This document shows, piece by piece, positions 1 to 16,493 of a DNA stretch of 64,000 nucleotides. This stretch comes from a virus, in the IMG/VR virus record IMGVR_UViG_3300008450_000018, positions 17,632 through 81,631 of that record; one strand, written 5' to 3'. The notes below the pieces were generated by a model, which was not told the DNA's origin, did no database searches, and saw only the letters and a program-made list of their open reading frames with translations. Every line of letters starts with the position of its first letter. Positions within the stretch are counted from its first letter, which is position 1. The position numbers and the translations under genes are program-made.

Positions 1-164
1 CCCAAGAAGCAAAAGTTTTTTTCCAGATATTTGTGTTGCTGTACAATTTCTTGTAATGCCGTAAACCATCGCTGAGCCATTTCATGCTCGTAGACATTGA
101 TAATATAGTCTAATGTTTTTGTTTTATCTAACGGATTTCGTAGTGTTATTATTACTTTATTCAA
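1..164 (-). CDS. Unknown protein, N-terminal part, runs off left edge (TTG start)
   Basis: An open frame on the minus strand begins with TTG at 164 and stays open to the window edge (54 codons). It reads NKVIITLRNPLDKTKTLDYI near the start and ends in KNFCFLG. The TTG lies in TTGAATAA, which overlaps the stop of the preceding radical SAM gene by 8 nt. The next junction upstream (1442-1449) has the matching ATGAATAA overlap, which supports the unusual start. The protein is the last visible member of the radical SAM operon. I do not recognise the family. The rest of the gene lies outside the window, so length and domains cannot be given. Confidence 0.7.
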   Translation of the reverse strand, partial: MNKVIITLRNPLDKTKTLDYIINVYEHEMAQRWFTALQEIVQQHKYLEKNFCFL

Positions 165-1449
165 TTGAATTCCACCATTTTAATACTTCAGGTTTTGTTG
201 AGAGTATATCACGCATAGTATAACTATCATTTCGAATTTGTTCAAGTCTTTCGATTCTTGCTTTTCCTTTACGCAAACCAATTTGATATTCGTTGGGCCA
301 TTGTTCCTTAAAGGTGGGTCTAGTTTTTAGTTGGACAAGTATATCCTTTAACGGATTATTACTAGTACCACTTATGATTTCGTCTGCCCAAGGATGTAAT
401 AATTCCCGGGGAAGAGATAAAGGTGACATAACTATGTCTGGACTAAAACTAAAAATTACTTTCGCGAGAATATCGACTTTTTCTTCTTCTGCAAGTCGCT
501 GGATATTAGCAATTTCGAACATGCCGGGCAAAGTGAGCGTAAAGTCAATTCGCATTTGACGTCTGTGACTAGCGATTTTAACTCCTTCACGGAAGTTTGC
601 AAGCCAAGAATTGTAGTCAAGGCCTGTTCTAATGTATTCTCCAATTTTTCCTGTGCCGTCGATACTTGCACAAATCTGCCAATCACGAAGCCCGCTGAGA
701 ATATCATTATAAAGATTGATACCTTTATAATTAATTCTTGATAAGTTTGTATTGTATCTAGCGTAAACATTTGGGCCGTCTCCTAATTCTATTATTCTCT
801 GCATGTATCTCCAATGTTGCTCATACATGAGAGGCTCGCCCCCTACCCAATATACTTCTTCGACTCGATGCTCTTCGACGGCTTGACTAAACTCTGCCTC
901 AATTTGTGTGTCTTGAAACTGTTCAATTTGTTTTTTGATTTCGGGCTGCATCCAATTATTTTTTGGATCCGCCCAATTGATCATGTTGTGTTGTCGTTGC
1001 TCACTTTCCCAAGCACTGCTTAACATGTCTCCACACATTCGACATTTAAAATTACAAAGATTACTAAATCTGTAATCCCAGCTCACAGGCTTCATATCTG
1101 TTGAGCCGTCGTGGCAAGTTTTTTCCATTGCTTCATTGTACTTATGACCAAACAATTGATTAAAATAGCTACGGTAAACATTGGTGTTTAGCAATTTGTC
1201 GTTGCATACTTCACACTCTGGCAGAGTTTCGCCGGCCATCATTCGACGCCGAACAGATTTCATATGTTCACTATTCCAATGTTCATCTAAATTAATTGGT
1301 ATATATTTTCCAGTACCAGACTTAGTATCTATGTACTGTTGAAAACTTTGTGCTGGTTCGCGACTTGCACAACACATTCTGCGTTCTGTTTGTGGACTCA
1401 GATATGTATGTGTCCACGGTGCAAGGCAAAGAGTAAGCGGTTTATTCAT
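157..1449 (-). CDS. Radical SAM protein with N-terminal twitch-like domain (paralogue 7)
   Basis: A 430-aa radical SAM enzyme of unknown substrate. The SAM-cluster motif CxxxCxxC is at C132, C136 and C139, followed by the SSxW signature shared by all paralogues here, then VGGEP (SAM-binding region) near residue 200, a YNTN strand and an SIDG strand. Ahead of the core is a cysteine-rich domain (C8 in a CxxPW motif, C26-C27, C79, C82) resembling a twitch/SPASM auxiliary Fe-S domain moved to the N-terminus. The C-terminus ends in a KPEVLKWW-type tail related to the FPE tail of its sisters. It overlaps genes on both sides by 8 nt, so translation is probably coupled. The family assignment is firm from motifs; the reaction is unknown. 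Confidence 0.93.
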   Translation of the reverse strand: MNKPLTLCLAPWTHTYLSPQTERRMCCASREPAQSFQQYIDTKSGTGKYIPINLDEHWNSEHMKSVRRRMMAGETLPECEVCNDKLLNTNVYRSYFNQLFGHKYNEAMEKTCHDGSTDMKPVSWDYRFSNLCNFKCRMCGDMLSSAWESEQRQHNMINWADPKNNWMQPEIKKQIEQFQDTQIEAEFSQAVEEHRVEEVYWVGGEPLMYEQHWRYMQRIIELGDGPNVYARYNTNLSRINYKGINLYNDILSGLRDWQICASIDGTGKIGEYIRTGLDYNSWLANFREGVKIASHRRQMRIDFTLTLPGMFEIANIQRLAEEEKVDILAKVIFSFSPDIVMSPLSLPRELLHPWADEIISGTSNNPLKDILVQLKTRPTFKEQWPNEYQIGLRKGKARIERLEQIRNDSYTMRDILSTKPEVLKWWNSIE

Positions 1450-2647
1450 AGCCCATGGCCTTTGCTATTTCGGGATGTGTATCCATAAAATTTTGTTTTC
1501 GATAAGCATCTGTGCGCTTCATATTGTTTAAAAATATTTGCCCGTCGCTGCCTGCACCGTTTTCGATAAATTTAATTACATTTTCAATTTCTTGGTGATG
1601 TTCCTCTGTGTTCCAAAAAGTTGTTTTAAGTTTATTCAAAACTAATTCTTTGGCTGCAGGAGTTAACTGTTGAATACTCATATGGTCTGGGCTGTGCAAC
1701 ATATTAAAATAAATGCTGTCAAAAGGTTTGGTGCTTGCCCAGGCCAGTAATTCATCTAAGTAATATACATTTTGAATATTAATAGTGAAACAAAGTTGAG
1801 TAGTAATGTTAGGCGTGTCAACGTCACGGGCAAAATGAACTCCGTCGATTATTTCGTTGGCCTTATCCCAATCTGCCCCGTATCGTTCATATTCAAATCT
1901 TTCACCGACATTGTCGATGCTAAATGCAATATCTACACGACCAAAATTATTCCATAAAGCTGATTTTTGTATGCCTAACCCGTCGATAGTTGCATTGGTA
2001 TTATAATGAATATCGATATGTTTACTATGGCCTGTTGCTACTGCATATCGTAGTAAATCCCAGTGTTCTTCGATTAACCAAGGCTCGCCCCCGGTAAATT
2101 CAAAATACTTAATATTGGGTAGTAACGATTTTAAATTCTCCCAAAAATTAGGACTCTCCTCTGGCCACTTACCTTGTTTAAGCCAAGTATATGCAACATG
2201 TTTTTTCTTATCATGTCCTTGCGGCAAATACTCTAATTCTTCTGCCGCCCACTTACTACTGCTCCAACTGCCGCATATCCTGCACTTTAAATTACAAATG
2301 TTGCCCAGCTTTAAATCAATGAACCATAATTGATCAGGAACATCGTTTTGCCAATCGACCAATGGGTATAACTCTTTGAGTCTAACTTGACTGTGAATAC
2401 GTTTACTAGTCCTGTTTGCGGCTTCCTCATCCCAGCATAATTTACAGGTATTTGGTTTTTCGCCGCGGCGGAATTGTCTACGTAAGTTTTGCATATACTC
2501 GCTAGTATATGCATCTTGTAATGTATGTCTTCTAAGATCAACACCAGTAATATCTTCTCTTGCAAGACAACAAGGTCTTGCAGTACCCATGGGGCTAGTC
2601 TCGATACTAATCCATGGCAACATACAAATACTATTAGGTAAAGTCAT
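1442..2647 (-). CDS. Radical SAM protein with N-terminal twitch-like domain (paralogue 6)
   Basis: A 401-aa paralogue of the neighbouring radical SAM genes. CxxxCxxC is at C118, C122 and C125, with SSxW following, TGGEPW as the GGEP motif, and YNTN and SIDN strands. The N-terminal auxiliary-cluster candidates are C8 (CMLPW), C26-C27, C68 and C71. The C-terminus carries a NFMDTHPE variant of the shared tail. The start ATG overlaps the upstream gene in ATGA, and the stop overlaps the downstream start in ATGAATAA. It belongs with the CC-type sisters (157-1449, 2644-3981, 8848-9906). The substrate is unknown. Confidence 0.93.
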   Translation of the reverse strand: MTLPNSICMLPWISIETSPMGTARPCCLAREDITGVDLRRHTLQDAYTSEYMQNLRRQFRRGEKPNTCKLCWDEEAANRTSKRIHSQVRLKELYPLVDWQNDVPDQLWFIDLKLGNICNLKCRICGSWSSSKWAAEELEYLPQGHDKKKHVAYTWLKQGKWPEESPNFWENLKSLLPNIKYFEFTGGEPWLIEEHWDLLRYAVATGHSKHIDIHYNTNATIDGLGIQKSALWNNFGRVDIAFSIDNVGERFEYERYGADWDKANEIIDGVHFARDVDTPNITTQLCFTINIQNVYYLDELLAWASTKPFDSIYFNMLHSPDHMSIQQLTPAAKELVLNKLKTTFWNTEEHHQEIENVIKFIENGAGSDGQIFLNNMKRTDAYRKQNFMDTHPEIAKAMGYE

Positions 2648-3981
2648 TTATTTTTTAACTCGCTTAATTCAGGAAATGTGTTCCAAAAGTTTTCTCCCCT
2701 GAGATTATCAATTAAATTAATTTCTTGTTTAAATTTACCCCAGTGCTGTGAGCCGTCGGTGGACATTAGGAAATTAATGGCACTCTTGAATCCAGTTGTT
2801 GCTCGTTTTAATGGATCTTGCGGTTCTAACCATTCAATATGTCTTTCGTATGCTGGTTTAATTACTCGCTCTTTAAATTCTTGCGGGAACAAATCAATCC
2901 TATACCATTCAGGACTTTGACAAATATTCACATTAAAATCTTTAGGCTTAATAAATCCCATATCAACCCATTCTTTATGAAAATCTAAAACGTGCAATAC
3001 ATTCATAGCACTAATAGTAGATGCAATATAAAAATCTACGTGCGGTACTTCTTCCAACATACGTTCACGATTGCGAACTGTTTGTTTCCAGTCTGTGCCT
3101 TTTCGCATTAGTTCTGCTCTGGCTCCGCTGGCATCTAAGCTGGCTCCTACTCCTACAGTTCTAAAATGTTTCCAGTATTCGAATACATGTTTATCTTTAA
3201 AAGCTAATTCACTAAAATTTGTATTGTATTGAATACAAACGTCTGTTCGTCCTGCTTCAATAAGTTTTTCTAATAGATAATAGTGTTCCTTCATAATCAA
3301 AGGTTCACCGCCTGCAAAATAAACTTGTTCCAAGTAGGGAATATGTTCTTCCATTTGTGCAATCATATAATCTTCGTCGCCAGCAGCATATTCAATTCTG
3401 GCCAAATCTTTGCCGTTTACGTCAGGCACTCTATTGAATAATTTGACATGATCATTATACCAATTACTGCTAAAAACCGGGCCGCACGTTCTGCAACGAA
3501 AATTACACAAATTGCTAAACCTAACGTCCCAGTATCTGATTTTAAATTCTGGGTGTGTTCCGTCTGGCAGTGTTTTATCTACGTCTGCAATATTATGTCC
3601 GTAACTACGATTAGCATCATAACGCATACTAAAGAATCCGTTTTCTTCTTGTTCATAACATTTGGTACATTGTTTAACTGGCTGATCTGCCATCATTAAA
3701 CGTCTGATCTCTTTGTACCCTTCTTGGTTCCAAACTTCTTGCATTGAATTCTTTTTTAAATTTCCAATTGGATGAAAGTATTCTGCAAAGCAACAAGGAT
3801 ACACTCTGCCGTCTGGGTAAGCATGTTGGTGAACCCATGGTAACATACAAAAAGATTTACTGTTCGTTAATCTGTTGATTTGAGTTTCTGTCAGCGTTGC
3901 AGGATCTGCAAATAATGGTTTCCTACTATTGTAATCGTAACCACGTTTATAAAATCTATCAGTTTTTTTATCTTCGCTCAT
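2644..3981 (-). CDS. Radical SAM protein with N-terminal twitch-like domain (paralogue 5)
   Basis: A 445-aa radical SAM protein. It has a roughly 40-residue N-terminal extension rich in charged residues before the CMLPW motif (C45). Other auxiliary cysteines are C63-C64 (in a G-x-V-Y-P-C-C context typical of twitch/SPASM strands), C105 and C108. The SAM motif is C159, C163 and C166, followed by SSxW, AGGEPLI, YNTN and an SLDASG strand. The tail is FWNTFPELSE. ATGA overlaps couple it to both neighbours. The clear order of twitch, core and FPE tail makes it a good reference member of the group. Its function beyond radical chemistry is not visible. Confidence 0.94.
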   Translation of the reverse strand: MSEDKKTDRFYKRGYDYNSRKPLFADPATLTETQINRLTNSKSFCMLPWVHQHAYPDGRVYPCCFAEYFHPIGNLKKNSMQEVWNQEGYKEIRRLMMADQPVKQCTKCYEQEENGFFSMRYDANRSYGHNIADVDKTLPDGTHPEFKIRYWDVRFSNLCNFRCRTCGPVFSSNWYNDHVKLFNRVPDVNGKDLARIEYAAGDEDYMIAQMEEHIPYLEQVYFAGGEPLIMKEHYYLLEKLIEAGRTDVCIQYNTNFSELAFKDKHVFEYWKHFRTVGVGASLDASGARAELMRKGTDWKQTVRNRERMLEEVPHVDFYIASTISAMNVLHVLDFHKEWVDMGFIKPKDFNVNICQSPEWYRIDLFPQEFKERVIKPAYERHIEWLEPQDPLKRATTGFKSAINFLMSTDGSQHWGKFKQEINLIDNLRGENFWNTFPELSELKNK

Positions 3982-5327
3982 AGTGTATTATACCAATCTG
4001 CCAGAGAAGGAAATGTTTTACAGAAGTCTTTACCTCTGCGCTGATCGTACTGTGTGTAAAATTGTTTGAAATCACTGCGTAATTTAGACAGCTCAAATGC
4101 ATCGCTGTGTGGAGTTTTTACAACATCCAAGTAATCTATTAATCTCTGTAAATGATTTATTTCATGCTCATGTAAATAGTTATGTCCTTTATGGCGAACA
4201 AGAAAATTAACCAATTGATCTTTGTATTTTGATTTAATATCATCAGGCAACACCAATGGACTCTGAAAACTAGGAAAACGTAAAATATTTAAAGTAAAAT
4301 TAGGATAGTCTCGGCCGAATTCTTTCTTTAAGTCTATTAGAGTATCTAAGAAATCAGGCAATGTATCCAGGCATAATGCATTAATTGTACACATAATATG
4401 AAGCCCGCGAAACTTTTTACTGTTAACAAGCTTCATAATATTTTCTAACCACAGAGTATAATTTAAACCATCTCGTATATATTCTGCTTGAATGTGATCA
4501 CTTTCGTTGCTAGTATATAAGTCTATTTCTAAACCATCCACGCTGTCAATTAATCTATCGATATCAACTTGATAACCTAAATTACTGTTAATAGCTAAAC
4601 GTGTTTGGCTTTTACCTTTATTAGTTTTAAACCAATCGATTAGTTTCCAAGTTTCTCCACTCATCAAAGGTTCTCCGCCCGTAATACGTAATTCCTTTAA
4701 TGTGCGATGTAAGTCTGATTCCCACCATTTATGAAATGCTTCAACATAGGGATTAACTTCGCCAAATTTATATAGTTGACTATGATCATGAGTATGAGTA
4801 AAATGATTCCTGCCGTCACTAACCAATCCTGTATAAGGCCCGTTACGTTTGATGTCATTGACCCATGTACTGCTAAAAGCAGGATTGCAATAACTACAAG
4901 CAAACTGACAAGTTCTGTCGAAAGCAATTTCAAGAGTTTGAAGATTGAAATCTTCTCTTGCTGGGGTTCTGTATGCATATGCCAAATCTTCATCATTGTA
5001 AATTACAGTTTTGTATACTCGATCGCTTATTGCATCTCGACCCATGTCTTCGATCTTCCAGCAGTACTCGCAACCTGACGGTCTTTCGCCCTTCTGCATC
5101 TGCTCTCGTTCCATTTTCTTTTTTTGAGTATTGTGCAATGCCCTAGGATTTCGTTCAACATCGTCAATGTCTACTTTGTGCGGCAAGGGATGGTGGCAAC
5201 TAGTAGTCATTCCGCTACCTAACCATATAGTAGCATTATACCATTTAGCTCCGCAAAAAGAATTTGATTTAATGTCGATTACTCTGCGTTTGTAATCTAA
5301 GTCTGTTTCATTGTTTATTCTTGGCAT
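3978..5327 (-). CDS. Radical SAM protein, CHH-type N-terminal domain (paralogue 4)
   Basis: A 449-aa radical SAM protein with C140, C144 and C147 in CxxxCxxC, then NPAFSSTW and TGGEPLM. It is the close sister of 7464-8855. Both have an N-terminal domain with FCGAKW/LCLAKW, then SCHHP or SCYHP instead of the CC pair of the other paralogues, then HNT...KK and CxYCW (C86, C89 here). The C-terminal tail is RRGKDFCKTFPSLADW. The ATG at 5327 lies 20 nt inside the preceding glycosyltransferase-like gene. The missing second cysteine suggests different ligation of the auxiliary cluster, possibly involving histidine; this is inference. Confidence 0.93.
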   Translation of the reverse strand: MPRINNETDLDYKRRVIDIKSNSFCGAKWYNATIWLGSGMTTSCHHPLPHKVDIDDVERNPRALHNTQKKKMEREQMQKGERPSGCEYCWKIEDMGRDAISDRVYKTVIYNDEDLAYAYRTPAREDFNLQTLEIAFDRTCQFACSYCNPAFSSTWVNDIKRNGPYTGLVSDGRNHFTHTHDHSQLYKFGEVNPYVEAFHKWWESDLHRTLKELRITGGEPLMSGETWKLIDWFKTNKGKSQTRLAINSNLGYQVDIDRLIDSVDGLEIDLYTSNESDHIQAEYIRDGLNYTLWLENIMKLVNSKKFRGLHIMCTINALCLDTLPDFLDTLIDLKKEFGRDYPNFTLNILRFPSFQSPLVLPDDIKSKYKDQLVNFLVRHKGHNYLHEHEINHLQRLIDYLDVVKTPHSDAFELSKLRSDFKQFYTQYDQRRGKDFCKTFPSLADWYNTL

Positions 5328-6348
5328 AGTTGTTAAATTTAGTTGTGAACTCGTCTATTAAATTTTTATCCTCACCCGGTGGTTGTGTGGATATCATTAC
5401 ATTCCTATTGTGTCTACAAATATCTTCGGCTTCATTTAAAAATTCTTCTAAATTAGAATTGCAAAGAAATTCTACCACATCCACTATTCGATCCAGTCGT
5501 TTATCGTTGTCGTCTATTAGATCAAACGATTCATCTATTAGATGACCAAACGTTTTAAATCCCTGATTGTGTAAATCTCTATAGAATCCATAGTTTGCCA
5601 CTGCTACAAATGGGTGCCCAATTTTAAGTGGCTTGTAAATTTTTTCTGTTCTAAAGCTATAAGGCAAATAAAAATTTGTTTCAGTGACAACACTGAAATA
5701 AGAATCTTCAAAAATATTTGCAAATATTTGTCCGTCGGGCCAGTCGTTTAATTTATATTTTCCGTTTATTACATTATCACTGTTGACTTGAAATTGGTAG
5801 TCTTTGGGCAAAAATTTATTGTCGTAGAGAGCAGACCATAAACTTCGGACTAACAAATCTTTTTTATTTAATTTTTCTATTAGTAATGAACGATGCGATC
5901 TTTCTATTCCATTTAAAAAATTAAACAAAAATGTCTTATTCCTTTTTAAAAAAATTCGATCAATTATCTTCGAATCTCTTTTTTCGAGCTCGGTTGTTGT
6001 ACGTCCTAAAATATACCTAAATATGTCTACGGTTACATGTGCTATACCCGGGGGCAAATCTCCCGACGACATTATAAACGGTAGACGCACAAAATCATTC
6101 CATCCTATTGCCTTTAATGTATCTAACACTGTATTGGTACCTTCGTGTAGCATACTTAGTATAAACAAATTTTTGCTGTCCAAGGAAATAATATTTTTTT
6201 TAATAATATCCCCCGTTAATAAAACAATACCATTGTTTGAAATTAAACTTTCTACGGTATCGTGCTCCATTATTTCAAAGTAATCGGGGTACCAATTAAA
6301 GAATTCTAAATCGTCGTTTTTTAACGAGTTAATTTTAATCTTTTGCAT
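5308..6348 (-). CDS. GT-B-like glycosyltransferase, probable
   Basis: A 346-aa protein without radical SAM cysteines, inserted between two radical SAM genes. The C-terminal third contains SVVTETNFY, then RTEKIYKPL, GHPFVAV, GFKTFG and IDESFD. This is the order of conserved blocks at the nucleotide-sugar-binding half of exostosin/GT10/GT47-type GT-B enzymes (V-x-E-T, T-E-K-x-x-K-P, H-P-F, G-F-x-T-F). The N-terminal half is divergent and I see no signal peptide. It overlaps the upstream gene by 14 nt and the downstream gene by 20 nt, so it belongs to the operon. Probable role: adding a sugar to a glycan or protein. The donor and acceptor are unknown. Confidence 0.75.
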   Translation of the reverse strand: MQKIKINSLKNDDLEFFNWYPDYFEIMEHDTVESLISNNGIVLLTGDIIKKNIISLDSKNLFILSMLHEGTNTVLDTLKAIGWNDFVRLPFIMSSGDLPPGIAHVTVDIFRYILGRTTTELEKRDSKIIDRIFLKRNKTFLFNFLNGIERSHRSLLIEKLNKKDLLVRSLWSALYDNKFLPKDYQFQVNSDNVINGKYKLNDWPDGQIFANIFEDSYFSVVTETNFYLPYSFRTEKIYKPLKIGHPFVAVANYGFYRDLHNQGFKTFGHLIDESFDLIDDNDKRLDRIVDVVEFLCNSNLEEFLNEAEDICRHNRNVMISTQPPGEDKNLIDEFTTKFNNYAKNKQ

Positions 6349-7480
6349 TTAAAAGATCCTTAACTTTGTCAGGAAGAGTAATGTTTTTTCTATCTTCCCA
6401 TTGTTTTAAAAAGTGTAAAAATTCTGAAAATAAAGTTTTATTAAATTTGGTTGAAGACAATATACTTAAAACAACATCAACATTCTTTATATTTTTATTA
6501 TCTAACAAAGTTAATAACACAGTTTCTGCTTGTTTTTTAATCTTATCCGGAGTTGCTTCAATGCTTTGAATTCTGGGATTTTGACCATATGACAATACCC
6601 AATGAAATTTATCTTTATATTTTTCTATTCTGGGCAGTATTACAGTAGATGAGAAGTTTTCAATATCGCAGAGAGTTAAATTAGTCATCAGACTTGATAT
6701 ATTAATTTTGATATTTTCTTCGCTGCGTTCTAATAGATAGTCCAAATTCTTCAAAAATAAATCATAATCAAGACCATATCTAACAAATTCTGATATTTCA
6801 TCACAAGAATCTAAACTGGCGTTTATTACAATGTATTTGAATTTATGTCTATTAGATAGTAGTTTATCTATTGCTTTTTTATCGACCATTAAATTTGAAG
6901 TTACATCTAAAATTCCTTTATGGTCTATCGTATCTAAGATATTAAAAAAATTTTTATTTATTAATGGTTCACCACCTATTATTCTCAAAGTTTCAAATTT
7001 CACAGTGTTTAACAATTCTAAATTTTCATCTATTAATTGCTTATTTTTAATATCTACACTGTAGACATGTCGATCTGTAAACAATTGATATTTTTGATTT
7101 TGTATATCTTTTTCCCATTGACTGCTAAACTTTGGATTACAATACATGCATTGCATATTGCAAGCATTGCCAACATTAATTTCAATTACCTTAGGCGATT
7201 TATTATTTTTATATTCATTAAATGTCGATATATCAAATTTTTTTAAGAATTGAATTCTGAGACTGGTGCCGTTTGTTTTTTCAGAATTCCAACAATAAGA
7301 ACAACTTGGATCTTTTACATTGTTTAATAAATTTTGTTTTTGATGATCAATGATTTCATTGTAATCGTTGACAAATTTTTCTGGCTTTGCTTTACAGCAA
7401 CCATATACATAGTTATAACTAGTATTGATGATTAGCTCATCCCATTTAGCCGGACAAAAAGTGTCAGGTAGTTGTTGCAT
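6335..7480 (-). CDS. Radical SAM protein with N-terminal twitch-like domain (paralogue 3)
   Basis: A 381-aa radical SAM protein, the most AT-rich and lysine/asparagine-rich of the set. The SAM motif is C107, C111 and C114, followed by NPKFSSQW. GGEP occurs as IGGEPLI, and the RYGLDY segment matches the R-x-G motif of the other copies. The N-terminal auxiliary cysteines are C9 (FCPAKW), C28-C29, C60 and C63. It combines the CPAKW feature of the CHH-type pair with a CC pair, so it looks intermediate. The C-terminal FPE tail is reduced to TLPDKVKDLL. It overlaps the upstream gene by 17 nt and the downstream gene by 14 nt. The substrate is unknown. Confidence 0.92.
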   Translation of the reverse strand: MQQLPDTFCPAKWDELIINTSYNYVYGCCKAKPEKFVNDYNEIIDHQKQNLLNNVKDPSCSYCWNSEKTNGTSLRIQFLKKFDISTFNEYKNNKSPKVIEINVGNACNMQCMYCNPKFSSQWEKDIQNQKYQLFTDRHVYSVDIKNKQLIDENLELLNTVKFETLRIIGGEPLINKNFFNILDTIDHKGILDVTSNLMVDKKAIDKLLSNRHKFKYIVINASLDSCDEISEFVRYGLDYDLFLKNLDYLLERSEENIKINISSLMTNLTLCDIENFSSTVILPRIEKYKDKFHWVLSYGQNPRIQSIEATPDKIKKQAETVLLTLLDNKNIKNVDVVLSILSSTKFNKTLFSEFLHFLKQWEDRKNITLPDKVKDLLNAKD

Positions 7481-8855
7481 AATATTTGCATTCCTTCCAA
7501 AAATCTACCATTTCTGGAAATGCCAAAATAAAGTTAGTTCCCCTGCGTCGATCATGTTCATTAAAAAACTTATAAAAATTTGCTTTTTGCATTTTAACAT
7601 AATCAGGATCCAACTTGCTACCTTCTCTCATCCAATCTATCACTCTTTGTAACCGCTGGACTTCATAGTCTTTGAATCCGTGAAATGGAGTTTCGGGCTG
7701 TTCCATTTTTGTAATCATAAAGCTCCACGATGTCTCTAGCTGATCGACATAGCTTTCAGGTAATAGTTGTAAACTTTGCCATTCTGGTTTACGTAGAATT
7801 GGAGTATCAAACCAGACACGCTGATATGTTTTGCTGTGTATTTGCCTAAGTCCCAGTATGCAACCTAATAGATTTTGAAGTCCCATTACATTTAAATTAT
7901 TCATAGTAATTATAAATGTTAGACTACTACGATTCGGAACTTCATATAAAAATCTGTTAACGTTATCCCAAAATCTTTCAAAATTTAATCCATGTCTGAT
8001 ATATTCAGCCTGCATAAAAGTAGCATCTATACTAACATACTGCATGAAATGCTCGATTTTTTTATTCTCATTGTCGCACAGTCTTTTTACATAATCCAGA
8101 TACTTGTCAAATAATGCAGGCTCAACACTGAAATTAGAAGTTACGTTTAAATGTAGCTTGGGACTAGGATTTTCTAATACGTAATCAAAAACACGATACG
8201 TATTTTTATCCATTAGTGGTTCTCCACCAGTCATCCTAAAATGTTCTAGTTCAGGATATAATTTTGGCCACCAAGACCAAAAGGCATCGACATAAGAATT
8301 ATCTTCTCTTGCAGGGATAACTTTTCTATCTCCCGTAAAATGACTGGGATCATTGTGCGGAGGATTAGTAGGAAAAGCTCCGCTACGTTCTACGTCACTG
8401 GCCCAACTGCTAGAGTATTGGGGACTACAATAACTACAAGCCAGATTGCAAGCATTATTAAAATTAACTTCTACATAGGAAGGAAGTACATCTTCATCCC
8501 CAGTAGAATTAGCTATTGTTTCAAAATCTTTTGCAGCCCATGGTTCCCCACTACGATAATGTCGATCGCTTAAATTGCCCAAATCTTCTTGTGTCCAACA
8601 ATAACTACATTCTTGTGGGCGCTCATTATGGAGCATAATCTTACGCTGCTCTTTTTTGTAAGGTGTATTATGTAATGCGCTGGGATTATTTTTTACTAGC
8701 GTTGAGTCAATTTTATGTAAAGGTGGATGATAACAACTGTTATTGAGACCCGTAGGCAAATGCAAGCTTACTTGTTTCCACTTTGCTAAACAAAGAGCAG
8801 GACCTAATTTAGATTTTGCTTCTTCAGCCGAGTTTAAAAAAACACTTTTAGACAT
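7464..8855 (-). CDS. Radical SAM protein, CYH-type N-terminal domain (paralogue 2)
   Basis: A 463-aa radical SAM protein, the longest of the series and sister to 3978-5327. C136, C140 and C143 form CxxxCxxC, followed by SPQYSSSW, then TGGEPLM. The N-terminal domain has C22 (LCLAKW), C41 in SCYHP, and C83/C86 in CSYCW. The tail is RRGTNFILAFPEMVDFW. The two sisters align over their whole length by eye, so this is a duplication within the phage lineage or its source. It overlaps the upstream gene by 8 nt and the downstream one by 17 nt. The reaction is not known. Confidence 0.93.
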   Translation of the reverse strand: MSKSVFLNSAEEAKSKLGPALCLAKWKQVSLHLPTGLNNSCYHPPLHKIDSTLVKNNPSALHNTPYKKEQRKIMLHNERPQECSYCWTQEDLGNLSDRHYRSGEPWAAKDFETIANSTGDEDVLPSYVEVNFNNACNLACSYCSPQYSSSWASDVERSGAFPTNPPHNDPSHFTGDRKVIPAREDNSYVDAFWSWWPKLYPELEHFRMTGGEPLMDKNTYRVFDYVLENPSPKLHLNVTSNFSVEPALFDKYLDYVKRLCDNENKKIEHFMQYVSIDATFMQAEYIRHGLNFERFWDNVNRFLYEVPNRSSLTFIITMNNLNVMGLQNLLGCILGLRQIHSKTYQRVWFDTPILRKPEWQSLQLLPESYVDQLETSWSFMITKMEQPETPFHGFKDYEVQRLQRVIDWMREGSKLDPDYVKMQKANFYKFFNEHDRRRGTNFILAFPEMVDFWKECKYYATTT

Positions 8856-9906
8856 TTAATAATAACTTCTTTGAAAATTTGTGAAAGGGTAAAGAATCAA
8901 ATAAATTTTCTTTTCTAATTTTATCTAGAAATAAAACATGTGAAATCGTATGGATTATCAATGTTTTATTGTAATTATTTTGTATTCTTGATTCTATTGC
9001 GTCGTACATTGATTGTGTAATATAAGGCCTAATACCAGCCAAACACTCAATAGCTAACGTTTGTAATTCATCTGGGATTGCATTTAAGTTTAAAAAGTCT
9101 GGACCATTTAATAAATTTAATTCAATTTGATAATCTTTAAAGTATGAAAGTAACTTTGGTAAATGCCAAAAATTCAATATACTAACAGTGGGAGAAATTT
9201 TTATACGTAAATTTGTAAGTTGTAACGATGCTAAAAGTTGTAGATTTTTGTTAACATCTTCCCAAGATGCACCAGATCTGATATATTCAAATTCTTTTTC
9301 TATTGCATCTATACTGCATGTTACATTGATTGATTTGAATTCTTTCCAAATATCAGTAATTGACGCATCTTTATATTTTAGGGTTGTCAAATTTGTATTA
9401 TACATTAATGCTATATTTTTTGCTTGACCAGATTCTATATATTTTTTTAAAATTGCCCAATGATCCCCATTTATAAATGGCTCTCCTCCAGTAAAATATG
9501 CATGTCGGACCGATGGAACCGTTATTATATCATAATAATCGTCCAAACTTTGATGTGTGATCGGTAATCCGAGCTCAGCAGCCCATTGGCTACTCGCATC
9601 TGCATTACAAGACCTGCATTTTAAATTACATAGGTTGGTATTTCTTATATCTAAGAACTGTAGTTCATTATTATCTATTGCATTTTTATTAAAAAAAGTT
9701 CTATAACTTGGTATCTTTTCCTGCTCTGCATCGATACATGTTTTGCATTCTTGAGGTGGTACACCAGTTTGTAGATCTTCAAACAAGTTACGATTACCAA
9801 TCTCTGTCATTGGTTTTCTATAGTTTGAATCTATTAGACAACACGGAGAAACTCCGTTTGAAAAAATTGTCAGACTATTTTTATATGCTGCACATTTCCA
9901 AGTCAT
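8848..9906 (-). CDS. Radical SAM protein with N-terminal twitch-like domain (paralogue 1)
   Basis: A 352-aa protein, the shortest radical SAM paralogue and the first in transcription order. The SAM motif is C93, C97 and C100, followed by NADASSQW; TGGEPFI and YNTN follow. The N-terminal cysteines are C5 (TWKC rather than C-x-x-x-W), C22-C23, C54 and C57. The C-terminus (LFDSLPFHKF) keeps only a trace of the FPE tail. It overlaps the SGNH hydrolase gene upstream by 4 nt and the next radical SAM gene by 8 nt. Loss of the CxxxW tryptophan at the N-terminus sets it apart, but all core motifs are intact, so it is probably active. Confidence 0.92.
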   Translation of the reverse strand: MTWKCAAYKNSLTIFSNGVSPCCLIDSNYRKPMTEIGNRNLFEDLQTGVPPQECKTCIDAEQEKIPSYRTFFNKNAIDNNELQFLDIRNTNLCNLKCRSCNADASSQWAAELGLPITHQSLDDYYDIITVPSVRHAYFTGGEPFINGDHWAILKKYIESGQAKNIALMYNTNLTTLKYKDASITDIWKEFKSINVTCSIDAIEKEFEYIRSGASWEDVNKNLQLLASLQLTNLRIKISPTVSILNFWHLPKLLSYFKDYQIELNLLNGPDFLNLNAIPDELQTLAIECLAGIRPYITQSMYDAIESRIQNNYNKTLIIHTISHVLFLDKIRKENLFDSLPFHKFSKKLLLNV

Positions 9907-10550
9907 AGTTGTTGTATCAAAATTAAAGCAAACTTTTGCTGTTCGTTAGCAGTGGGATGCCGAGTGGGTGTCATGATATCGTTAAATGAAACTGATAATT
10001 TTGTGTTGAACTCATGCCCAAACACAGAAAAATCGTAGTATTTTATGTGTTGCGAATCCATCCACAATCTAAACAAATTTATCAACATGCCTGCTGTATT
10101 AGTTTGATCAATGAAGTTGTTTTCTATCATGATCTTGTGTAACTTTGGCAGTGTTGATAGATGTTGTTGATTGTGTTTGTCTGTGATAAATTTTACATTG
10201 TTTTTGTGTTCTACAAATACATCTGGATCGCTGTGATCACCTAGCAAAACGTAACTGGGGAGGATTTGCAACATAGAATCTTGTGTGTAAAAGCCTGCTC
10301 GGGCTGGATTGGTCCACCTTACAATTACTGTGTCAATATCCTGTTGATGGTGGGAAAGATAATGATACCCGACCTCCACTGTTCTCTGTACAGAGCTTCC
10401 AGGTTCAGCCAAGTTTAAATAGTCTAGTTCTAGGTGATCAGCCACATAGTGACCAAATGCATGTTCTGTGTTTTTTGGGTCTTTAAACACGCTTGCAGTG
10501 CCTATGCCGTGACAAAAACTATCTCCAAGAACCAGTAACTTTTTTACCAC
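9903..10550 (-). CDS. SGNH/GDSL-type hydrolase
   Basis: A 215-aa protein with LVLGDSFCHG at residues 6-15, the block I GDS motif with probable nucleophile S11. A C-terminal D-x-x-x-P-T-R-H-P segment contains H198, fitting the block V catalytic Asp/His. GSSVQ near residue 57 could supply the oxyanion Gly. Enzymes of this family are esterases, lipases or carbohydrate O-acetyl esterases. Beside glycosyltransferases, an O-acyl transfer or removal role on a glycan is the natural guess. No signal peptide is seen, so it acts in the cytoplasm or in the virion. It overlaps the neighbouring genes by 4 and 7 nt. Confidence 0.8.
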   Translation of the reverse strand: MVKKLLVLGDSFCHGIGTASVFKDPKNTEHAFGHYVADHLELDYLNLAEPGSSVQRTVEVGYHYLSHHQQDIDTVIVRWTNPARAGFYTQDSMLQILPSYVLLGDHSDPDVFVEHKNNVKFITDKHNQQHLSTLPKLHKIMIENNFIDQTNTAGMLINLFRLWMDSQHIKYYDFSVFGHEFNTKLSVSFNDIMTPTRHPTANEQQKFALILIQQL

Positions 10551-11500
10551 CCTTCAACTCGTCGAATAACATCTAACTCAGTTATTGTTGTTCCTATATT
10601 ACGATGCACTGCTTTATAATGATGCTTGAAAAATGCGCTTTGATCTGCTGTCATATCAACAATAGGTAGCCCTAGTCGTGTACGTAACGTTTGACCGATA
10701 TTCTCACAAGCAGGCTCTGCATCTTTACTAAAGCTGTTCCATAAATATGCAAGATGATCAAAATCTTGTACTTGTTTATAATCCCACTCTCTTAACATAG
10801 TCATGTACGTACCTAGGCGAGCACCGTATATGGCCCACCATCCATTTTCCACGTCTCGGCCGACACTTTGCCAAATACATAAATGATCATAGTTTCGAGC
10901 ATGAACTTTTTGTTCAAACTCTTGCAGGCTGGGTTTCTTTCCTCGATCTAAACACATCTTAACACCTTCGCGGAATCCTGCTCGCCATGCTTGAAAAGGT
11001 GTTGCATTGGGAAATGTAGTACTATAGCAATCATGCATGGGAATATACTTAGGGTCAAAACAAAACTCTATCACGGTTTCGTCTCTGCCGTCAGTGGCTT
11101 CATGTGTTCGCATATTGTTAACGAACTCTTTGGTCCAGCAACTTATTCCGCCGTTGCCGTACATTAACCCATTGATATGATTGCGAGCCTTCCATCTAAA
11201 CACACAATCTTGATTATTGTCGTCTAATTTAAGTTGGAGATTAAAAAACTCAGCGTCAGGTATATTGTCTCCGTCTATTAGCACGAACCTATCAGTATCG
11301 CTGGCCGCGGCGGCTGCTTTATGTGCAGCATCACTGCCTTTAACTCCATCCACACGTTTAGCCCACGGAATTAAATTTTGAATCTTAATCCAAAATTCTT
11401 CTTTTTTTGGTTCGTCGTAGGTTAAAAATATACAATCGAGATCTGCAATATCAACGATTTTTGTAGTCATAGTGTTCTGTGTCTTTAAAAGTTTCGCCAT
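10544..11500 (-). CDS. GT-A-fold glycosyltransferase, probable
   Basis: A 318-aa protein with a Rossmann-like N-terminal half. FVLIDGDNIPD near residue 73 supplies the D-x-D metal/nucleotide-sugar motif of GT-A enzymes, and the adjacent R-W-K-A-R-N segment, GNGGISCW and HDCYS are consistent with an acceptor side. Similar proteins are carried by aquatic T4-like phages. Two starts are possible: ATG at 11500, with GGAAG directly abutting it, or ATG at 11470 (MTTKIVDIA), which overlaps the upstream gene by only 20 nt and begins at the first conserved strand. I list the longer form but consider the shorter one equally likely. Donor and acceptor are unknown. Confidence 0.8.
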   Translation of the reverse strand: MAKLLKTQNTMTTKIVDIADLDCIFLTYDEPKKEEFWIKIQNLIPWAKRVDGVKGSDAAHKAAAAASDTDRFVLIDGDNIPDAEFFNLQLKLDDNNQDCVFRWKARNHINGLMYGNGGISCWTKEFVNNMRTHEATDGRDETVIEFCFDPKYIPMHDCYSTTFPNATPFQAWRAGFREGVKMCLDRGKKPSLQEFEQKVHARNYDHLCIWQSVGRDVENGWWAIYGARLGTYMTMLREWDYKQVQDFDHLAYLWNSFSKDAEPACENIGQTLRTRLGLPIVDMTADQSAFFKHHYKAVHRNIGTTITELDVIRRVEGW

Positions 11501-11876
11501 CTTCCAAAATTATGCCAGATAAATTTTTTACTGTTTTAAAACCAGTCTGACTTTTTTCAAGTTGAGGAGTTTGATTTAAGTTATCTTTTTTGATCGAAAC
11601 TTTATCGTTTTGTATTCGATACTTGTAGCATTCCATATACACGGATTTATAAGTATTCTCATCTACTACAATATAATCACCAGAAAGGCCGTACATTTCT
11701 GCATCTTTTACTGTAGGGGATGTAGCCGTGATGTTTCCACTTTCATCGTAGTATATTCGATATTCGTATTCAATTAGTGCAGGTTTATCTATTAGCCCTA
11801 ACTCGTCTAATTGTCGAATTATTTCTTCTAAGGTAGTATCTTCATTGACTGTTATGGTAGGTTCGTTCGTACTCAT
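11451..11876 (-). CDS. Unknown 141-aa protein
   Basis: A small acidic protein, rich in Thr, Glu and Asp, with an N-terminal TTLEEIIRQLDELG helix followed by beta-strand-like segments (YEYRIYYDESGNI, YIVVDENTYKSVY). There are no cysteines in metal-binding spacing and no membrane segment. It sits between two glycosyltransferase-like genes, overlapping the upstream one by 35 nt and the downstream one by 20-50 nt depending on that start. The tight overlaps and the sustained open frame make it a real gene. I do not recognise a family. A small substrate or scaffold protein for the neighbouring enzymes is one possibility, without direct evidence. Confidence 0.75.
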   Translation of the reverse strand: MSTNEPTITVNEDTTLEEIIRQLDELGLIDKPALIEYEYRIYYDESGNITATSPTVKDAEMYGLSGDYIVVDENTYKSVYMECYKYRIQNDKVSIKKDNLNQTPQLEKSQTGFKTVKNLSGIILEDGETFKDTEHYDYKNR

Positions 11877-12693
11877 TTAATAATTCCTCTGTTACATATG
11901 ATTTATCATAATAATGCACTGGGTTGTATTGATTTAGATTGTGAATTTTAATCATGTGGTTATCTCGGTCATGCATTACTATGTCTTGCCAAGACTGATC
12001 GGTATTACCCCAACCATTGATACCAGGTTTCAAATGTATAAAATTAATGAAATCCATGGTAGGTATAGTGCATAGTTCTACTCCTATCGTCTTTGCTGTT
12101 ACTGCATACAGTGCATCGGTGCTGGGTATATCTTCTCGACAATTTTTTAATATATTCTCTTTGAGATAATCCCAATTTCTTAAAATTCTTTGTGCTGTTA
12201 AAAAGAAATCACTGGCTGTTTTACTATATCTAAAATACATCAAACCATTATATATGTCCGGAAGATCATTATCATCAAAAAATTTTCTATAAAGTCTTGA
12301 TGTAGATAATTCTTGTCTATAAGTTCTGCAGCCAGTGCTCAATACAACATCTCGCAGTCTAAAAGCATTCCACCAATGGTCAATATTCCGTGTAAATAAT
12401 AAGTCACTTTCTAATTTAATAGTTTCTTTAAAAGGACTCAGTGAAAAAACTTGATATTCATTGGATAGCTTCCATGTACTACCTGTGTCGTTTTCGTCAT
12501 AGGGAAGTTCGATAATGTGATCAAAAACTTTTGTGTGTTTATCTGTGATTTGATCGATAGTATTTTTATCACAGATCACTGCATACTTAGCACCCGGGTG
12601 TAGGCTTTTTACATTCATTGCTTGGCAATACGCAAGTCTAAGATAATCTATCTTATCTGTATTCTGTGCAAATGTAAGAAAACCTTTACTCAT
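11842..12693 (-). CDS. GT8-like glycosyltransferase family protein
   Basis: A 283-aa protein starting with MSKGFLTFAQNTDKIDYLRL, a first strand and helix typical of GT-A/GT8-like enzymes. TIKLESDLLF near residue 100 has E-S-D in the place of the D-x-D motif. An N-G-L-M-Y-F-R segment follows, as in the next gene upstream (12686-13507). The two are tandem paralogues: both start with a V/L-x-F-A-x-N strand and have Y-x-x-F-x-L-S-P-x-x-E-T-I before the acidic motif. The altered E-S-D may weaken metal binding, so activity is less certain than for its sister. The start overlaps the upstream gene by 8 nt. Confidence 0.75.
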   Translation of the reverse strand: MSKGFLTFAQNTDKIDYLRLAYCQAMNVKSLHPGAKYAVICDKNTIDQITDKHTKVFDHIIELPYDENDTGSTWKLSNEYQVFSLSPFKETIKLESDLLFTRNIDHWWNAFRLRDVVLSTGCRTYRQELSTSRLYRKFFDDNDLPDIYNGLMYFRYSKTASDFFLTAQRILRNWDYLKENILKNCREDIPSTDALYAVTAKTIGVELCTIPTMDFINFIHLKPGINGWGNTDQSWQDIVMHDRDNHMIKIHNLNQYNPVHYYDKSYVTEELLNEYERTYHNSQ

Positions 12694-13507
12694 TACAAAC
12701 AGCCTTTACAAAGCTATCAAATTGTTCTGACAATAGATAGTTCTTATCCATGATATGCAAATTTTGTCTGCTGATTACATCTGCCCGGTGTTTGTACTTA
12801 ACAGTTAAAAATTTATTTTTGAGATCGATAGACTCAATGTTGTCTTCTATGGTCAACATTAGCCAAGGTATACTTTGCTCAGGAGTCAGTGTATGGCCAT
12901 TTAAAATGATATTGGCCATACTGAATGCAAAATCGTTTCTATAATTTGTTTCTCTAACAGCAAACAAACTTCTATAATATCCATAGTTTCGTTGTATACG
13001 GCCCACTAAATCGAAAAACATTTTAGCTCTTGTAGTTTTTCGAAATAGTACTACAGTAGCCCAAACCATTGGCAAACTCGCAGGCCCCATTTCATCTGTG
13101 TTAAGTCCCAGTGGGGTCTGCATGTTATACATTAATCTATAGTCAAAGGGTTGGTCGAGTAACTTTATCAAGCTATTGTTGAGCATCAAATAATCAGTGT
13201 CTATTAAAATGGTTTCATCATATGGACTTAAATCGAATGCTCGATACCTATCAAAATTTTTCCATTCATATAATTGCTGATCTTTGGAAAATCTGACGTT
13301 GCCAGTTTTACTATCAACTCGAATTATTTGATCATAATCAAATTTTAATTCGGCATCTATGTCTGTGACTATCGTTACAGGAAGGTTTGTATTTTTTTTG
13401 ATTAATTTACTTGTTTGGTCTGCTATATCGGTATATTTGACTTTTCGACTGTTAAAAGCAAATACCAACACACCTTTAGATTTTTCTAATTCGCTTGAGT
13501 TCTTCAT
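12686..13507 (-). CDS. GT8-like glycosyltransferase family protein
   Basis: A 273-aa GT-A-like protein. VLVFAFNSRKVKYTD opens the fold, FDLSPYDETILIDTDYLM (residues about 90-107) carries an intact D-T-D metal motif, and an S-L-P-M-V-W-A-T-V-V-L-F-R segment probably forms the acceptor side. It is the tandem paralogue of 11842-12693. It overlaps its upstream neighbour by 32 nt. Enzymes of this fold transfer a sugar from a nucleotide donor; the target here could be a phage glycan or protein. The symmetric position of two related copies suggests sequential transfers. Confidence 0.78.
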   Translation of the reverse strand: MKNSSELEKSKGVLVFAFNSRKVKYTDIADQTSKLIKKNTNLPVTIVTDIDAELKFDYDQIIRVDSKTGNVRFSKDQQLYEWKNFDRYRAFDLSPYDETILIDTDYLMLNNSLIKLLDQPFDYRLMYNMQTPLGLNTDEMGPASLPMVWATVVLFRKTTRAKMFFDLVGRIQRNYGYYRSLFAVRETNYRNDFAFSMANIILNGHTLTPEQSIPWLMLTIEDNIESIDLKNKFLTVKYKHRADVISRQNLHIMDKNYLLSEQFDSFVKAVCNE

Positions 13508-13802
13508 GTTGTTGGTGCCACTCGTTCATTGCTGAATGATAGTGTTGTTGTGCTTTAATTAAAAATTCTTGTTTATCTATTTCTATAGGATTTTGATAAA
13601 CATCCTCAAGATAAAATCTGTCAATGGGCCAACTTGCAGCAAATGCCAATAGTTCTGGAGTTATTTTGAACAATCCGTTTTCATAAGGCATGTGTAAGTC
13701 TGTTAAAATACGTTCCCTTAGCAATCGTTTGTTAATTTGATAATCTGTAGCCAATTTTATCTGATTGACTATTTCTTCGACAGTGCTGTTCATATTGGAC
13801 AT
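13476..13802 (-). CDS. Unknown 108-aa protein, first gene of the accessory operon
   Basis: A mostly helical small protein: an N-terminal TVEEIVNQIKLATDYQ helix, a middle segment FLEDVYQNPIEIDKQEF-like, and a charged C-terminal helix ending ELKRIRKI. There are no cysteines and no membrane segment. It is the promoter-proximal gene of the radical SAM/glycosyltransferase operon, about 20 nt downstream of a consensus sigma70-like -10 box, so it would have a very short leader. ATG at 13802 (MSNMNST) or 13793 (MNST) are both possible starts; neither has a clear Shine-Dalgarno sequence. Similar short proteins occur in aquatic T4-like phages without known function. Confidence 0.75.
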   Translation of the reverse strand: MSNMNSTVEEIVNQIKLATDYQINKRLLRERILTDLHMPYENGLFKITPELLAFAASWPIDRFYLEDVYQNPIEIDKQEFLIKAQQHYHSAMNEWHQQHEELKRIRKI

Positions 13803-13807
13803 AAAAT

Positions 13808-13840
13808 GATAGGTATATACTATTATAATATATACCTATC
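13808..13840. promoter_or_regulatory. Palindromic operator-like element over the -10 box
   Basis: A perfect inverted repeat with 12-bp arms (13808-13819, GATAGGTATATA; 13829-13840, its complement) and a 9-nt centre that contains the -10 hexamer. One arm occupies the promoter spacer and the other the start-site region, the geometry of a repressor operator. It lacks the G+C-rich stem and U-run of a terminator, and initiation inside it would leave the RNA hairpin incomplete. The binding protein is unknown. Confidence 0.6.
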
Positions 13841-13851
13841 TCATATGTCAA
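13822..13851 (-). promoter_or_regulatory. Consensus sigma70-type promoter of the accessory operon
   Basis: On the minus strand TTGACA (13851-13846) is followed after 18 nt by TATAAT (13827-13822). Both hexamers match the bacterial housekeeping consensus perfectly. The -35 box begins 9 nt after the stop codon of the fibre gene at 13861, and initiation would fall about 10-15 nt before the ATG at 13802. It points only at the accessory operon. The structural genes upstream instead have T4 late-type boxes, so this operon is probably expressed early by host RNA polymerase. Confidence 0.8.
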
Positions 13852-13860
13852 TCTTAAAAT

Positions 13861-14799
13861 TTAAGATATGGTAACTGTTCCCCAAGTATTTGTTAAGTTA
13901 GTTGTTTCTGGAAATTGAACTGTACAAATCATACCTAAACTAACATTTATCGAATCTGCGGGCTGAGTTGACCCTGTAGTAGCAGAAAATGCGTTAACTG
14001 TGATAGTAATAGTGTTTCCGTTTGCACTATATGAACCGGTAGTTCCATTAGTGGAATAGTTAACACTTAAAAAATCGCCTGTATAGTAGCTTGTACTAGT
14101 AACTTTGAATTTTTCAGTTGGGGTAGTAGTCAAACCGGTATAATATCCGCCGGTAGTAGTATCTGTGTTTAAAGTTCCACCTGAGCCTGCTCGGGCGCCG
14201 TAGGTTATGGCATTCAAACGTTTAGAAGAAAAATTAGTTTGAGCCAAAGTTTGTATACTAGTACCACGGGAAGTTCCTCCAGTATTAGTGAAACTATTAT
14301 ACGCTAGGGTTATATATCCGCCAGAATTGAAAAAATATCGTGTTGCATCTACACCACTACTGAAAGTAATTGTAAAGGTAATAATTCCAGTAACAGACGT
14401 GCCGGCTGAAGTATTCATAGTTGTAGCTTTTGAACTCGACGTTGTAGTTCCAACCGTTGCCGCACTAAGTCTGTTAGTGGCCGCAGTCGAAACAGCTGAC
14501 GTTAGTGTGGATAAAAACGCTATCGATGTGCCAGCAGTGGGCGCACTTATACCAGATCCGCTACCACTTTGATGAACCCTTGCAGAATTTAATGTATTAA
14601 CTAAACTTGCCCAGTTGGTTGCCGCTACAGTTCCCCCCACAGACACATTGCCCACTGCGGTTTGACCATATCCATAACTTCCTAGCCCAGTAGACCAAAC
14701 TGGATTAAGTTGGGTTCCGCCTCCTTGTGTGCCGGCAGACCCGCCCACTATATTGTTAAAATCGCTTGCTTCAATTAATCCACCGGATGCGTATGTCAT
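13861..14799 (-). CDS. Virion structural/tail fibre-like protein
   Basis: A 312-aa, Ser/Thr/Gly-rich, cysteine-poor beta-protein. It contains RYFFNSGGYITLAYN near residue 155, a motif common in virion proteins of aquatic phages, and repeated short strands ending in a VSLGMICTVQFPET segment. It is the last gene of the minus-strand tail block. A late-type TTAAATA box lies 17 nt before its ATG, inside the end of the upstream fibre gene. It is probably a fibre or fibre-attached protein. No enzymatic motif is present, and no T4 gene number can be assigned. Confidence 0.75.
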   Translation of the reverse strand: MTYASGGLIEASDFNNIVGGSAGTQGGGTQLNPVWSTGLGSYGYGQTAVGNVSVGGTVAATNWASLVNTLNSARVHQSGSGSGISAPTAGTSIAFLSTLTSAVSTAATNRLSAATVGTTTSSSKATTMNTSAGTSVTGIITFTITFSSGVDATRYFFNSGGYITLAYNSFTNTGGTSRGTSIQTLAQTNFSSKRLNAITYGARAGSGGTLNTDTTTGGYYTGLTTTPTEKFKVTSTSYYTGDFLSVNYSTNGTTGSYSANGNTITITVNAFSATTGSTQPADSINVSLGMICTVQFPETTNLTNTWGTVTIS

Positions 14800-16485: not shown

Positions 16486-16493
16486 TATTTATA
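16486..16493 (-). promoter_or_regulatory. T4 late promoter box, perfect match
   Basis: The minus strand reads TATAAATA, identical to the T4 late -10 element recognised by gp55-RNA polymerase. It lies 21 nt before the ATG at 16464, in the 40-nt gap after the preceding gene. Confidence 0.7.

Follow-up and report, generated by a model that had tools for sequence, protein, structure and literature searches.

Why does a phage maintain a series of adjacent genes for radical S-adenosylmethionine (rSAM) enzymes, which perform chemistry open to few other catalysts, and on what might these enzymes act? The question is raised by a 64-kb stretch of viral DNA (hereafter the window; part of the 81,631-base IMG/VR record IMGVR_UViG_3300008450_000018), seven of whose genes, all within 157-9906 on the minus strand, were originally predicted from the sequence alone to be rSAM paralogues. 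The analysis reported here, which also took in the 17.6 kb of the record upstream of the window, reveals that five of the rSAM genes have a fixed order in related viruses and that they are accompanied by sugar genes and putative glycosyltransferase genes beside tail fibres, which implies that the viruses probably build and tailor an unusual glycan.

T4-type portal and head proteins are encoded in the record, together with gp46/gp47-like genes and a late sigma factor. The closest relatives of its capsid protein are those of jumbo myoviruses (284-470 kb; e.g. Vibrio phage 2.275.O and Serratia phage BF, 66-71% identity) and related contigs reach up to 374 kb; the record is therefore probably a fragment of a much larger phage genome. 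Its left end (L008:1-2729) encodes, as read by eye, a pair comprising a MoxR-type AAA ATPase and a VWA-like protein.

The radical SAM array

Eight adjacent open reading frames (ORFs) occupy 157-9906 (minus strand), with successive overlaps of 4 to 20 bases. The prediction that seven of them encode intact rSAM proteins with an N-terminal twitch domain is borne out by comparison with NCBIfam NF033640 ('twitch domain-containing radical SAM protein', N_Twi_rSAM), for which the curated cut-off is 170 bits and above which no protein of 14 control genomes scored. Five are core genes, i.e. g1 (157..1449, 430 aa, 294.5 bits), g2 (1442..2647, 401 aa, 333.6 bits), g3 (2644..3981, 445 aa, 405.6 bits), g4 (3978..5327, 449 aa, 288.4 bits) and g7 (7464..8855, 463 aa, 325.6 bits); g6 (6335..7480, 381 aa, 199.3 bits) is accessory, and g8 (8848..9906, 352 aa, 237.8 bits) completes the set, the scores thus spanning 199-406 bits. 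The predicted lengths of 352-463 aa are correct, and the motifs CxxxCxxC, CxxxCxxC-x4-SSxW, GGEP and R-x-G-x-(D/N/S)-(Y/F/W) are present in 7/7 proteins, CxxxCxxC and GGEP occurring together only in these seven among the 31 window ORFs of at least 250 aa.

The Cys-rich domain predicted at the N-terminus is likewise real, having a C..CC..CxxC pattern in g1, g2, g3, g6 and g8 and a Cys/His-type auxiliary motif, with four cysteines and conserved histidines, in g4 and g7. Both the SAM motif and the N-terminal auxiliary ligands are conserved in keeping with NF033640 membership, g8 having no orthologues for comparison. A predicted model of g3 (predicted local distance difference test score, pLDDT, 83) has mostly rSAM enzymes as its best PDB matches, including CteB, anSME, viperin and DesII; the fold-match scores are low, with sugar enzymes such as DesII in the same range as CteB and anSME, and the sequence match to BtrN is not significant.

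The remaining ORF of the eight (5308..6348, minus strand, 346 aa) belongs to a recurrent accessory family, family 9, that is found inside and around the array. It has no significant match in Pfam, NCBIfam or PHROG, and a C-terminal motif read by eye weakly supports its assignment as a putative glycosyltransferase (GT). The limits of 157-9906 hold for the eight ORFs but not for the gene cluster, which extends past both ends, from 13802 (minus strand) past the left edge of the window to ~7400 of the 81,631-base record. A further rSAM gene, the eighth, is of another type (46690-47694, plus strand; weak C-terminal SPASM match, phrog_21308) and adjoins the gp46/gp47-like (SbcCD) genes.

Conservation, order and age of the array

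Scanning with g3 yielded 39 loci, of which 30 non-redundant loci were used for rSAM counts; scans with two further genes of the cluster, GT4 and FAM2, gave at least 599 and at least 541 relatives, the best 80 of each being studied. A tree of the rSAM proteins from the g3-scan loci has five orthologous lines, corresponding to g7, g4, g3, g2 and g1, all of which are present in nearly all of the 30 loci; g6 is present in 8/30 and g8 in the window only, no orthologue of it being found in related loci. Among the loci from the GT4 and FAM2 scans, the order g7-g4-g3-g2-g1 is kept in 127/127 with at least three core rSAM genes, 91 of which have all five, although these loci are not independent events, because similarity was the basis of their selection, several contigs appear in more than one scan and the gene labels are best-profile labels. 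Loci at a greater distance vary (e.g. L135, L137, L140 and L149).

In each core line about half of the positions are at least 93% conserved, the cluster cysteines among them. Thus, two findings that the original prediction had named as fatal to it, copies without functional clusters and scattered genes without a shared neighbourhood, did not emerge; instead, at least 93% of orthologues keep the cluster residues, which rules out degenerate rSAM copies, and the proposed survey of genome neighbourhoods reveals strict synteny of the core rSAM genes in a shared neighbourhood. The view of the array as a series of related yet distinct enzymes in one pathway, with a shared neighbourhood and intact clusters, is supported, and the suggestion of one enzyme per sugar, a candidate reading, fits the context.

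The postulated tandem amplification does not stand as a local event. Identity is 17-31% between paralogues compared with means of 57-76% between orthologues, the five core lines having means of 70-76% between phages, and, in a tree that includes 65 cellular and other domains, cellular NF033640 lines fall among the core lines, albeit with weak deep support; on both grounds recent duplication is rejected, the paralogues being ancient lines. Nor does the premise that phages normally carry few rSAM genes apply to this group, since 52/58 loci with enough sequence have 4-6. Two single ORFs (L052:3447-6767 and L068:6906-9113) have more than one radical SAM match and are possible double rSAM proteins.

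The wider island

The array lies within a larger island, the order of which is F11, F10, f8, GT7, GT6, f5, GT4 and the rSAM array, followed by FAM2, SGNH genes, a carbamoyltransferase, a kinase/nucleotidyltransferase and GT13; beyond GT13, on the opposite strand, are a DegT aminotransferase and a nucleoside diphosphate (NDP)-sugar dehydratase/epimerase. Between zero and five accessory genes are inserted in the rSAM array, and 96% of the intergenic gaps from g7 to FAM2 are of 30 bases or fewer. FAM2 (366 aa, minus strand; 5' end at 1..164, full gene at G000:C1:16695-17795) is immediately downstream of g1, as it is in 74/80 loci; its AlphaFold model is confident, yet had no match among PDB structures, and its database matches are uncharacterised phage proteins only. 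The carbamoyltransferase is at most five genes away in 78/80 loci, and the aminotransferase and the dehydratase are each present beyond GT13 in 40/43.

Curated-family matches in the island are to Carbam_trans_N/C, Epimerase and DegT, the family evidence being firm for the carbamoyltransferase, DegT, the epimerase and an APS-kinase-like domain and moderate for SGNH. The carbamoyltransferase matches the O-carbamoyltransferases GdmN and TobZ, the DegT protein matches sugar/cyclitol aminotransferases, and for one accessory protein the matches are to amidinotransferases, inosamine-phosphate amidinotransferase among them; other inserted or nearby accessory genes encode a B12-type rSAM, an AMP-ligase and a second epimerase. 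BtrN, DesII, AprD4 and NeoN, rSAM enzymes acting on aminoglycoside or dTDP sugars, are also found beside sugar aminotransferases, carbamoyltransferases or amidinotransferases.

On the other side of the array, all on the minus strand, are a likely SGNH-like protein (9903..10550, 215 aa), with an N-terminal GDSF motif read from the sequence but no family match, GT4 (10544..11500), the small protein f5 (11451..11876), GT6 (11842..12693), GT7 (12686..13507) and f8 (13476..13802), which encodes a small protein and opens the enzyme operon. Elsewhere in the island there are recurrent SGNH/GDSL-like genes, and f5 has a conserved position between GT6 and GT4. GT4 and GT7 are putative GT-A glycosyltransferases with, in alignment, an invariant DGDN and an invariant DxD (D103, D105), respectively, whereas GT6, which matches phrog_1903 (unknown function), is on alignment putatively GT8-like. 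Every core island family has at most one transmembrane (TM)-like stretch, implying that no flippase or polymerase is encoded in the core.

Fibre genes and regulation

Upstream of the enzyme operon (minus strand) are F10 (13861..14799), a Gly/Ser/Thr-rich protein and candidate acceptor beside the fibre gene, and F11 (14812..16464, 550 aa), a tail-fibre-like protein that matches a PHROG tail fibre family (2.3e-5) and, more strongly, unknown phage families. Both are present in 80/80 GT4-anchored loci, in which the putative GT genes are contiguous with the tail-fibre genes; F10, f5 and f8 gave nothing significant against Pfam, PHROGs or NCBIfam. A single 4673-aa ORF (17301-31322, minus strand), probably a giant fibre or tail protein, lies beside the fibre genes.

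The F10-f8 gap has a sigma70-type promoter (TTGACA-N18-TATAAT, 13822..13851, minus strand), the only perfect copy in the window. In related F10-f8 gaps, 34/75 (45%) score at least 10/12 for this motif, compared with 2.2% of control stretches, and the motif is commoner there than upstream of any other gene class. An inverted repeat (13808..13840, minus strand), an operator or terminator hairpin, overlaps its -10 box, a 70-base stretch at this position folding with z = -6.2. Upstream of F11 there is a T4-type late promoter, TATAAATA (16486..16493, minus strand), which precedes 24/103 F11 genes in other loci, mostly by ~26-33 bases, and which is absent upstream of all core rSAM and GT genes in the related loci. 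The window has only 2 copies where 10 would be expected, a depletion that looks like avoidance of the motif at sites other than real promoters. The distribution of the two motifs makes it probable that the fibre genes and the enzyme operon are transcribed separately.

Related loci outside this phage group

A Bacteriovoracaceae genome encodes a natural carbamoyltransferase-SPASM-rSAM fusion (934 aa), in a locus whose other genes include DegT and GT2-like ones and those of an ABC exporter, Wzm/Wzt-like by eye. In a second Bacteriovoracaceae locus, a g7-like rSAM gene is accompanied by genes for a carbamoyltransferase, a PqqD-like protein and an ABC exporter. The PqqD-like gene and a short ORF ending in SSNSSYGGY (L272:19215-19793), the latter a possible precursor of a ribosomally synthesized and post-translationally modified peptide (RiPP), lie near the g7-like rSAM gene. 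A Bdellovibrionia contig (L266-L268; G008:C192, ~22-55 kb) carries ~17 NF033640 genes near dnaG-/rpoD-like genes; it also encodes an Asp/Asn hydroxylase family protein and, as judged by eye, an amidinotransferase-like protein.

Among viruses, the isolated Vibrio phage K566 has four related rSAM genes interspersed with two GT8 genes, and in the marine single-cell virus MH319727 a carbamoyltransferase gene adjoins an rSAM gene; no isolate phage with GT4, GT7 or FAM2 was found among those searched. A marine contig binned as Rickettsiales but phage-like in appearance (L274-L275; G010:C6) has the fibre-GT block and more than 10 rSAM genes. 

A proposed glycan pathway

We propose, with a probability of about one half, that the array serves as the tailoring core in a soluble, aminoglycoside-like phage glycan pathway, the product of which is displayed on the virion or the host surface. 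The proposal builds on direct observations: the gene set is conserved and its members overlap, the rSAM enzymes are intact, and the genes for sugar, amino and carbamoyl chemistry are genuine. It is supported, too, by the strict order of the core rSAM genes and by the links outside this phage group, namely the Bacteriovoracaceae fusion, the GT8 genes of K566 and the carbamoyltransferase gene of MH319727. That the island genes act in one shared pathway is very probable; that the rSAM enzymes act on sugars, as BtrN, NeoN, AprD4 and DesII do, is the view that we favour, with some reserve.

The NDP-sugar dehydratase/epimerase and DegT-type aminotransferase, for which the evidence is at the family level, would give an amino-deoxy NDP-sugar, from which the putative GT-A enzymes GT7, GT6, GT4 and GT13 may assemble a short oligosaccharide in the cytoplasm. 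Each of g7, g4, g3, g2 and g1 might then perform one different radical reaction on the NDP-sugar or nascent glycan, such as dehydrogenation, epimerisation, deoxygenation/deamination or a C-C bond change, with g6, g8 and other accessory rSAM proteins perhaps providing product variation. The NodU/TobZ-type carbamoyltransferase and the SGNH proteins, assigned by family, would add or remove carbamoyl and acyl groups. The product would then be attached either to a phage structure, for which F10/F11 are the leading candidates, or, with only slightly lower probability, to host lipopolysaccharide (LPS), transcription of the enzyme operon starting at a sigma70 promoter of its own and that of the fibre gene occurring separately and late. 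The fibre as acceptor is thus a tentative assignment and a host glycan a slightly more tentative one. A bolder version, in which the five core rSAM enzymes are successive, obligatory stations of an ordered assembly line for radical chemistry and FAM2 is a new partner protein or enzyme, giving an unprecedented glycan on virion fibres, we consider doubtful.

Several observations weigh against this proposal. The assignment of GT7, GT6, GT4 and GT13 as glycosyltransferases is weak, depending on DxD-type or DGDN motifs; none of the four has a Pfam match, GT7 and GT4 have no PDB homologue by sequence and, in a profile comparison of GT7 with a Pfam-confirmed GT8 protein of K566, the match was not significant, with only the DxD stretch aligned. 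We know of no member of this rSAM family with a known substrate. PqqD-like genes in two bacterial rSAM loci (one by Pfam, one by eye) are a sign of peptide substrates, lipid A genes near the K566 rSAM genes (LpxC and a protein annotated as PagP) favour LPS as the target, and a role specific to the fibre is made less likely by regulation separate from that of the fibre gene.

Alternative explanations

The alternative that survives best, possible though on the unlikely side, is that the same glycan enzymes act early in infection on the host LPS core/O-antigen, so blocking superinfection. The sigma70-type promoter, separate from the late genes, would suit such a role, as would the GT8 genes and LpxC near the K566 rSAM genes and the Wzm/Wzt-like exporters in bacterial rSAM/carbamoyltransferase loci, and similar clusters of pelagimyophages (PMC7029224) and jumbo cyanophages (PMC7824862) were so read by earlier authors. 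The conserved island, however, has no flippase, polymerase, ligase or lipid-carrier transferase, and its position beside fibre genes is constant.

Modification of a peptide, either a phage protein (F10, F11, f5 or f8) or a RiPP-like product, is improbable. Many twitch/SPASM enzymes act on peptides, the peptide-acting CteB and anSME are among the best PDB fold matches, and one of the two bacterial PqqD-like genes is beside a short peptide ORF; but the fold scores are low, with DesII-type sugar enzymes in a similar range, and the carbamoyl and sugar genes point elsewhere. Furthermore, no RiPP recognition element (RRE)/PqqD gene was recognised in the phage island, where f5 and f8, among the genes tested, lack a Pfam PqqD match, and the narrow gaps leave almost no intergenic room for a precursor gene.

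More improbable still is the production, in the course of infection, of an unattached small molecule comparable to an antibiotic or toxin. In its favour, the gene toolbox resembles aminoglycoside pathways and a carbamoyltransferase cluster of jumbo cyanophages has been so interpreted (PMC7824862). Against this, there are several putative GTs, the adjacency to fibre genes is constant and the island has no exporter. Hypermodification of phage DNA is very improbable. In certain phages rSAM enzymes and GTs do act on DNA bases, and thymidylate synthase and dCMP deaminase genes lie nearby; but the thymidylate synthase keeps the ordinary FNIASY motif rather than being a hydroxymethylase, no pyrimidine hydroxymethylase was seen in the 82 kb of this incomplete genome, and the carbamoyl and NDP-sugar genes are a poor fit. 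All three of these readings are less likely than that of a glycan placed on fibres or host LPS.

The occurrence of five deeply diverged rSAM enzymes in one fixed order in many large aquatic phages suggests a long pathway under strong selection, with a product as yet unseen. If the proposed glycan pathway is confirmed, some members of an enzyme family that is still uncharacterised would gain functions, FAM2 would be recognised as a new partner, and it would become clear how phages alter their own surface or that of the host; the isolated Vibrio phage, with a smaller relative, makes the question open to experiment.

Comparison with known systems

Scores above the curated cut-off place all seven proteins in NF033640, but this is a family name without known function and does not describe ordered arrays. 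Compared with BtrN, DesII, AprD4 and NeoN, the auxiliary domain is N-terminal and there is no close sequence relation. A similar difference holds for the RiPP rSAM/SPASM maturases: the SPASM-like matches of g1-g3 are at the N-terminus rather than C-terminal to the barrel, and neither a precursor gene nor an RRE/PqqD gene was found in the operon (as judged from the gaps and, for f5/f8, by Pfam). Unlike an O-antigen conversion (Gtr) cassette, the core has no protein with two or more TM-like stretches.

Viruses with many rSAM genes, rSAM cassettes in host recognition clusters (HRCs), and glycan/carbamoyltransferase clusters in jumbo phages are already known. In the open-access papers searched, neither the ordered five-rSAM core nor FAM2, the fusion or the split regulation was found to have been described before, nor was any report found on rSAM genes with tail fibres in jumbo phages. 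The T4-like marine virus TARA_ERS488813_N000010 has 12 rSAM genes (Nishimura et al. 2017, PMC5332604); such viruses are likewise T4-like, aquatic and rich in rSAM genes, but that study described the products as Fe-S proteins and gave no gene order, partners or pathway. The pelagimyophage HRC has glycosyltransferases and rSAM cassettes beside tail fibres (2020, PMC7029224), the rSAMs receiving only a passing remark; the island described here shares with it putative GTs contiguous with fibres, but differs in its fixed five-rSAM core, FAM2 and dedicated promoter, and in a capsid protein nearest to those of jumbo myoviruses. Polysaccharide-modification/carbamoyltransferase clusters of jumbo phages, with glycosyltransferases and sugar enzymes (2021, PMC7824862), have NDP-sugar enzymes and a carbamoyltransferase in common with the island; no radical SAM is mentioned for them, and they are polymorphic between related phages, whereas the core of the present island is constant.

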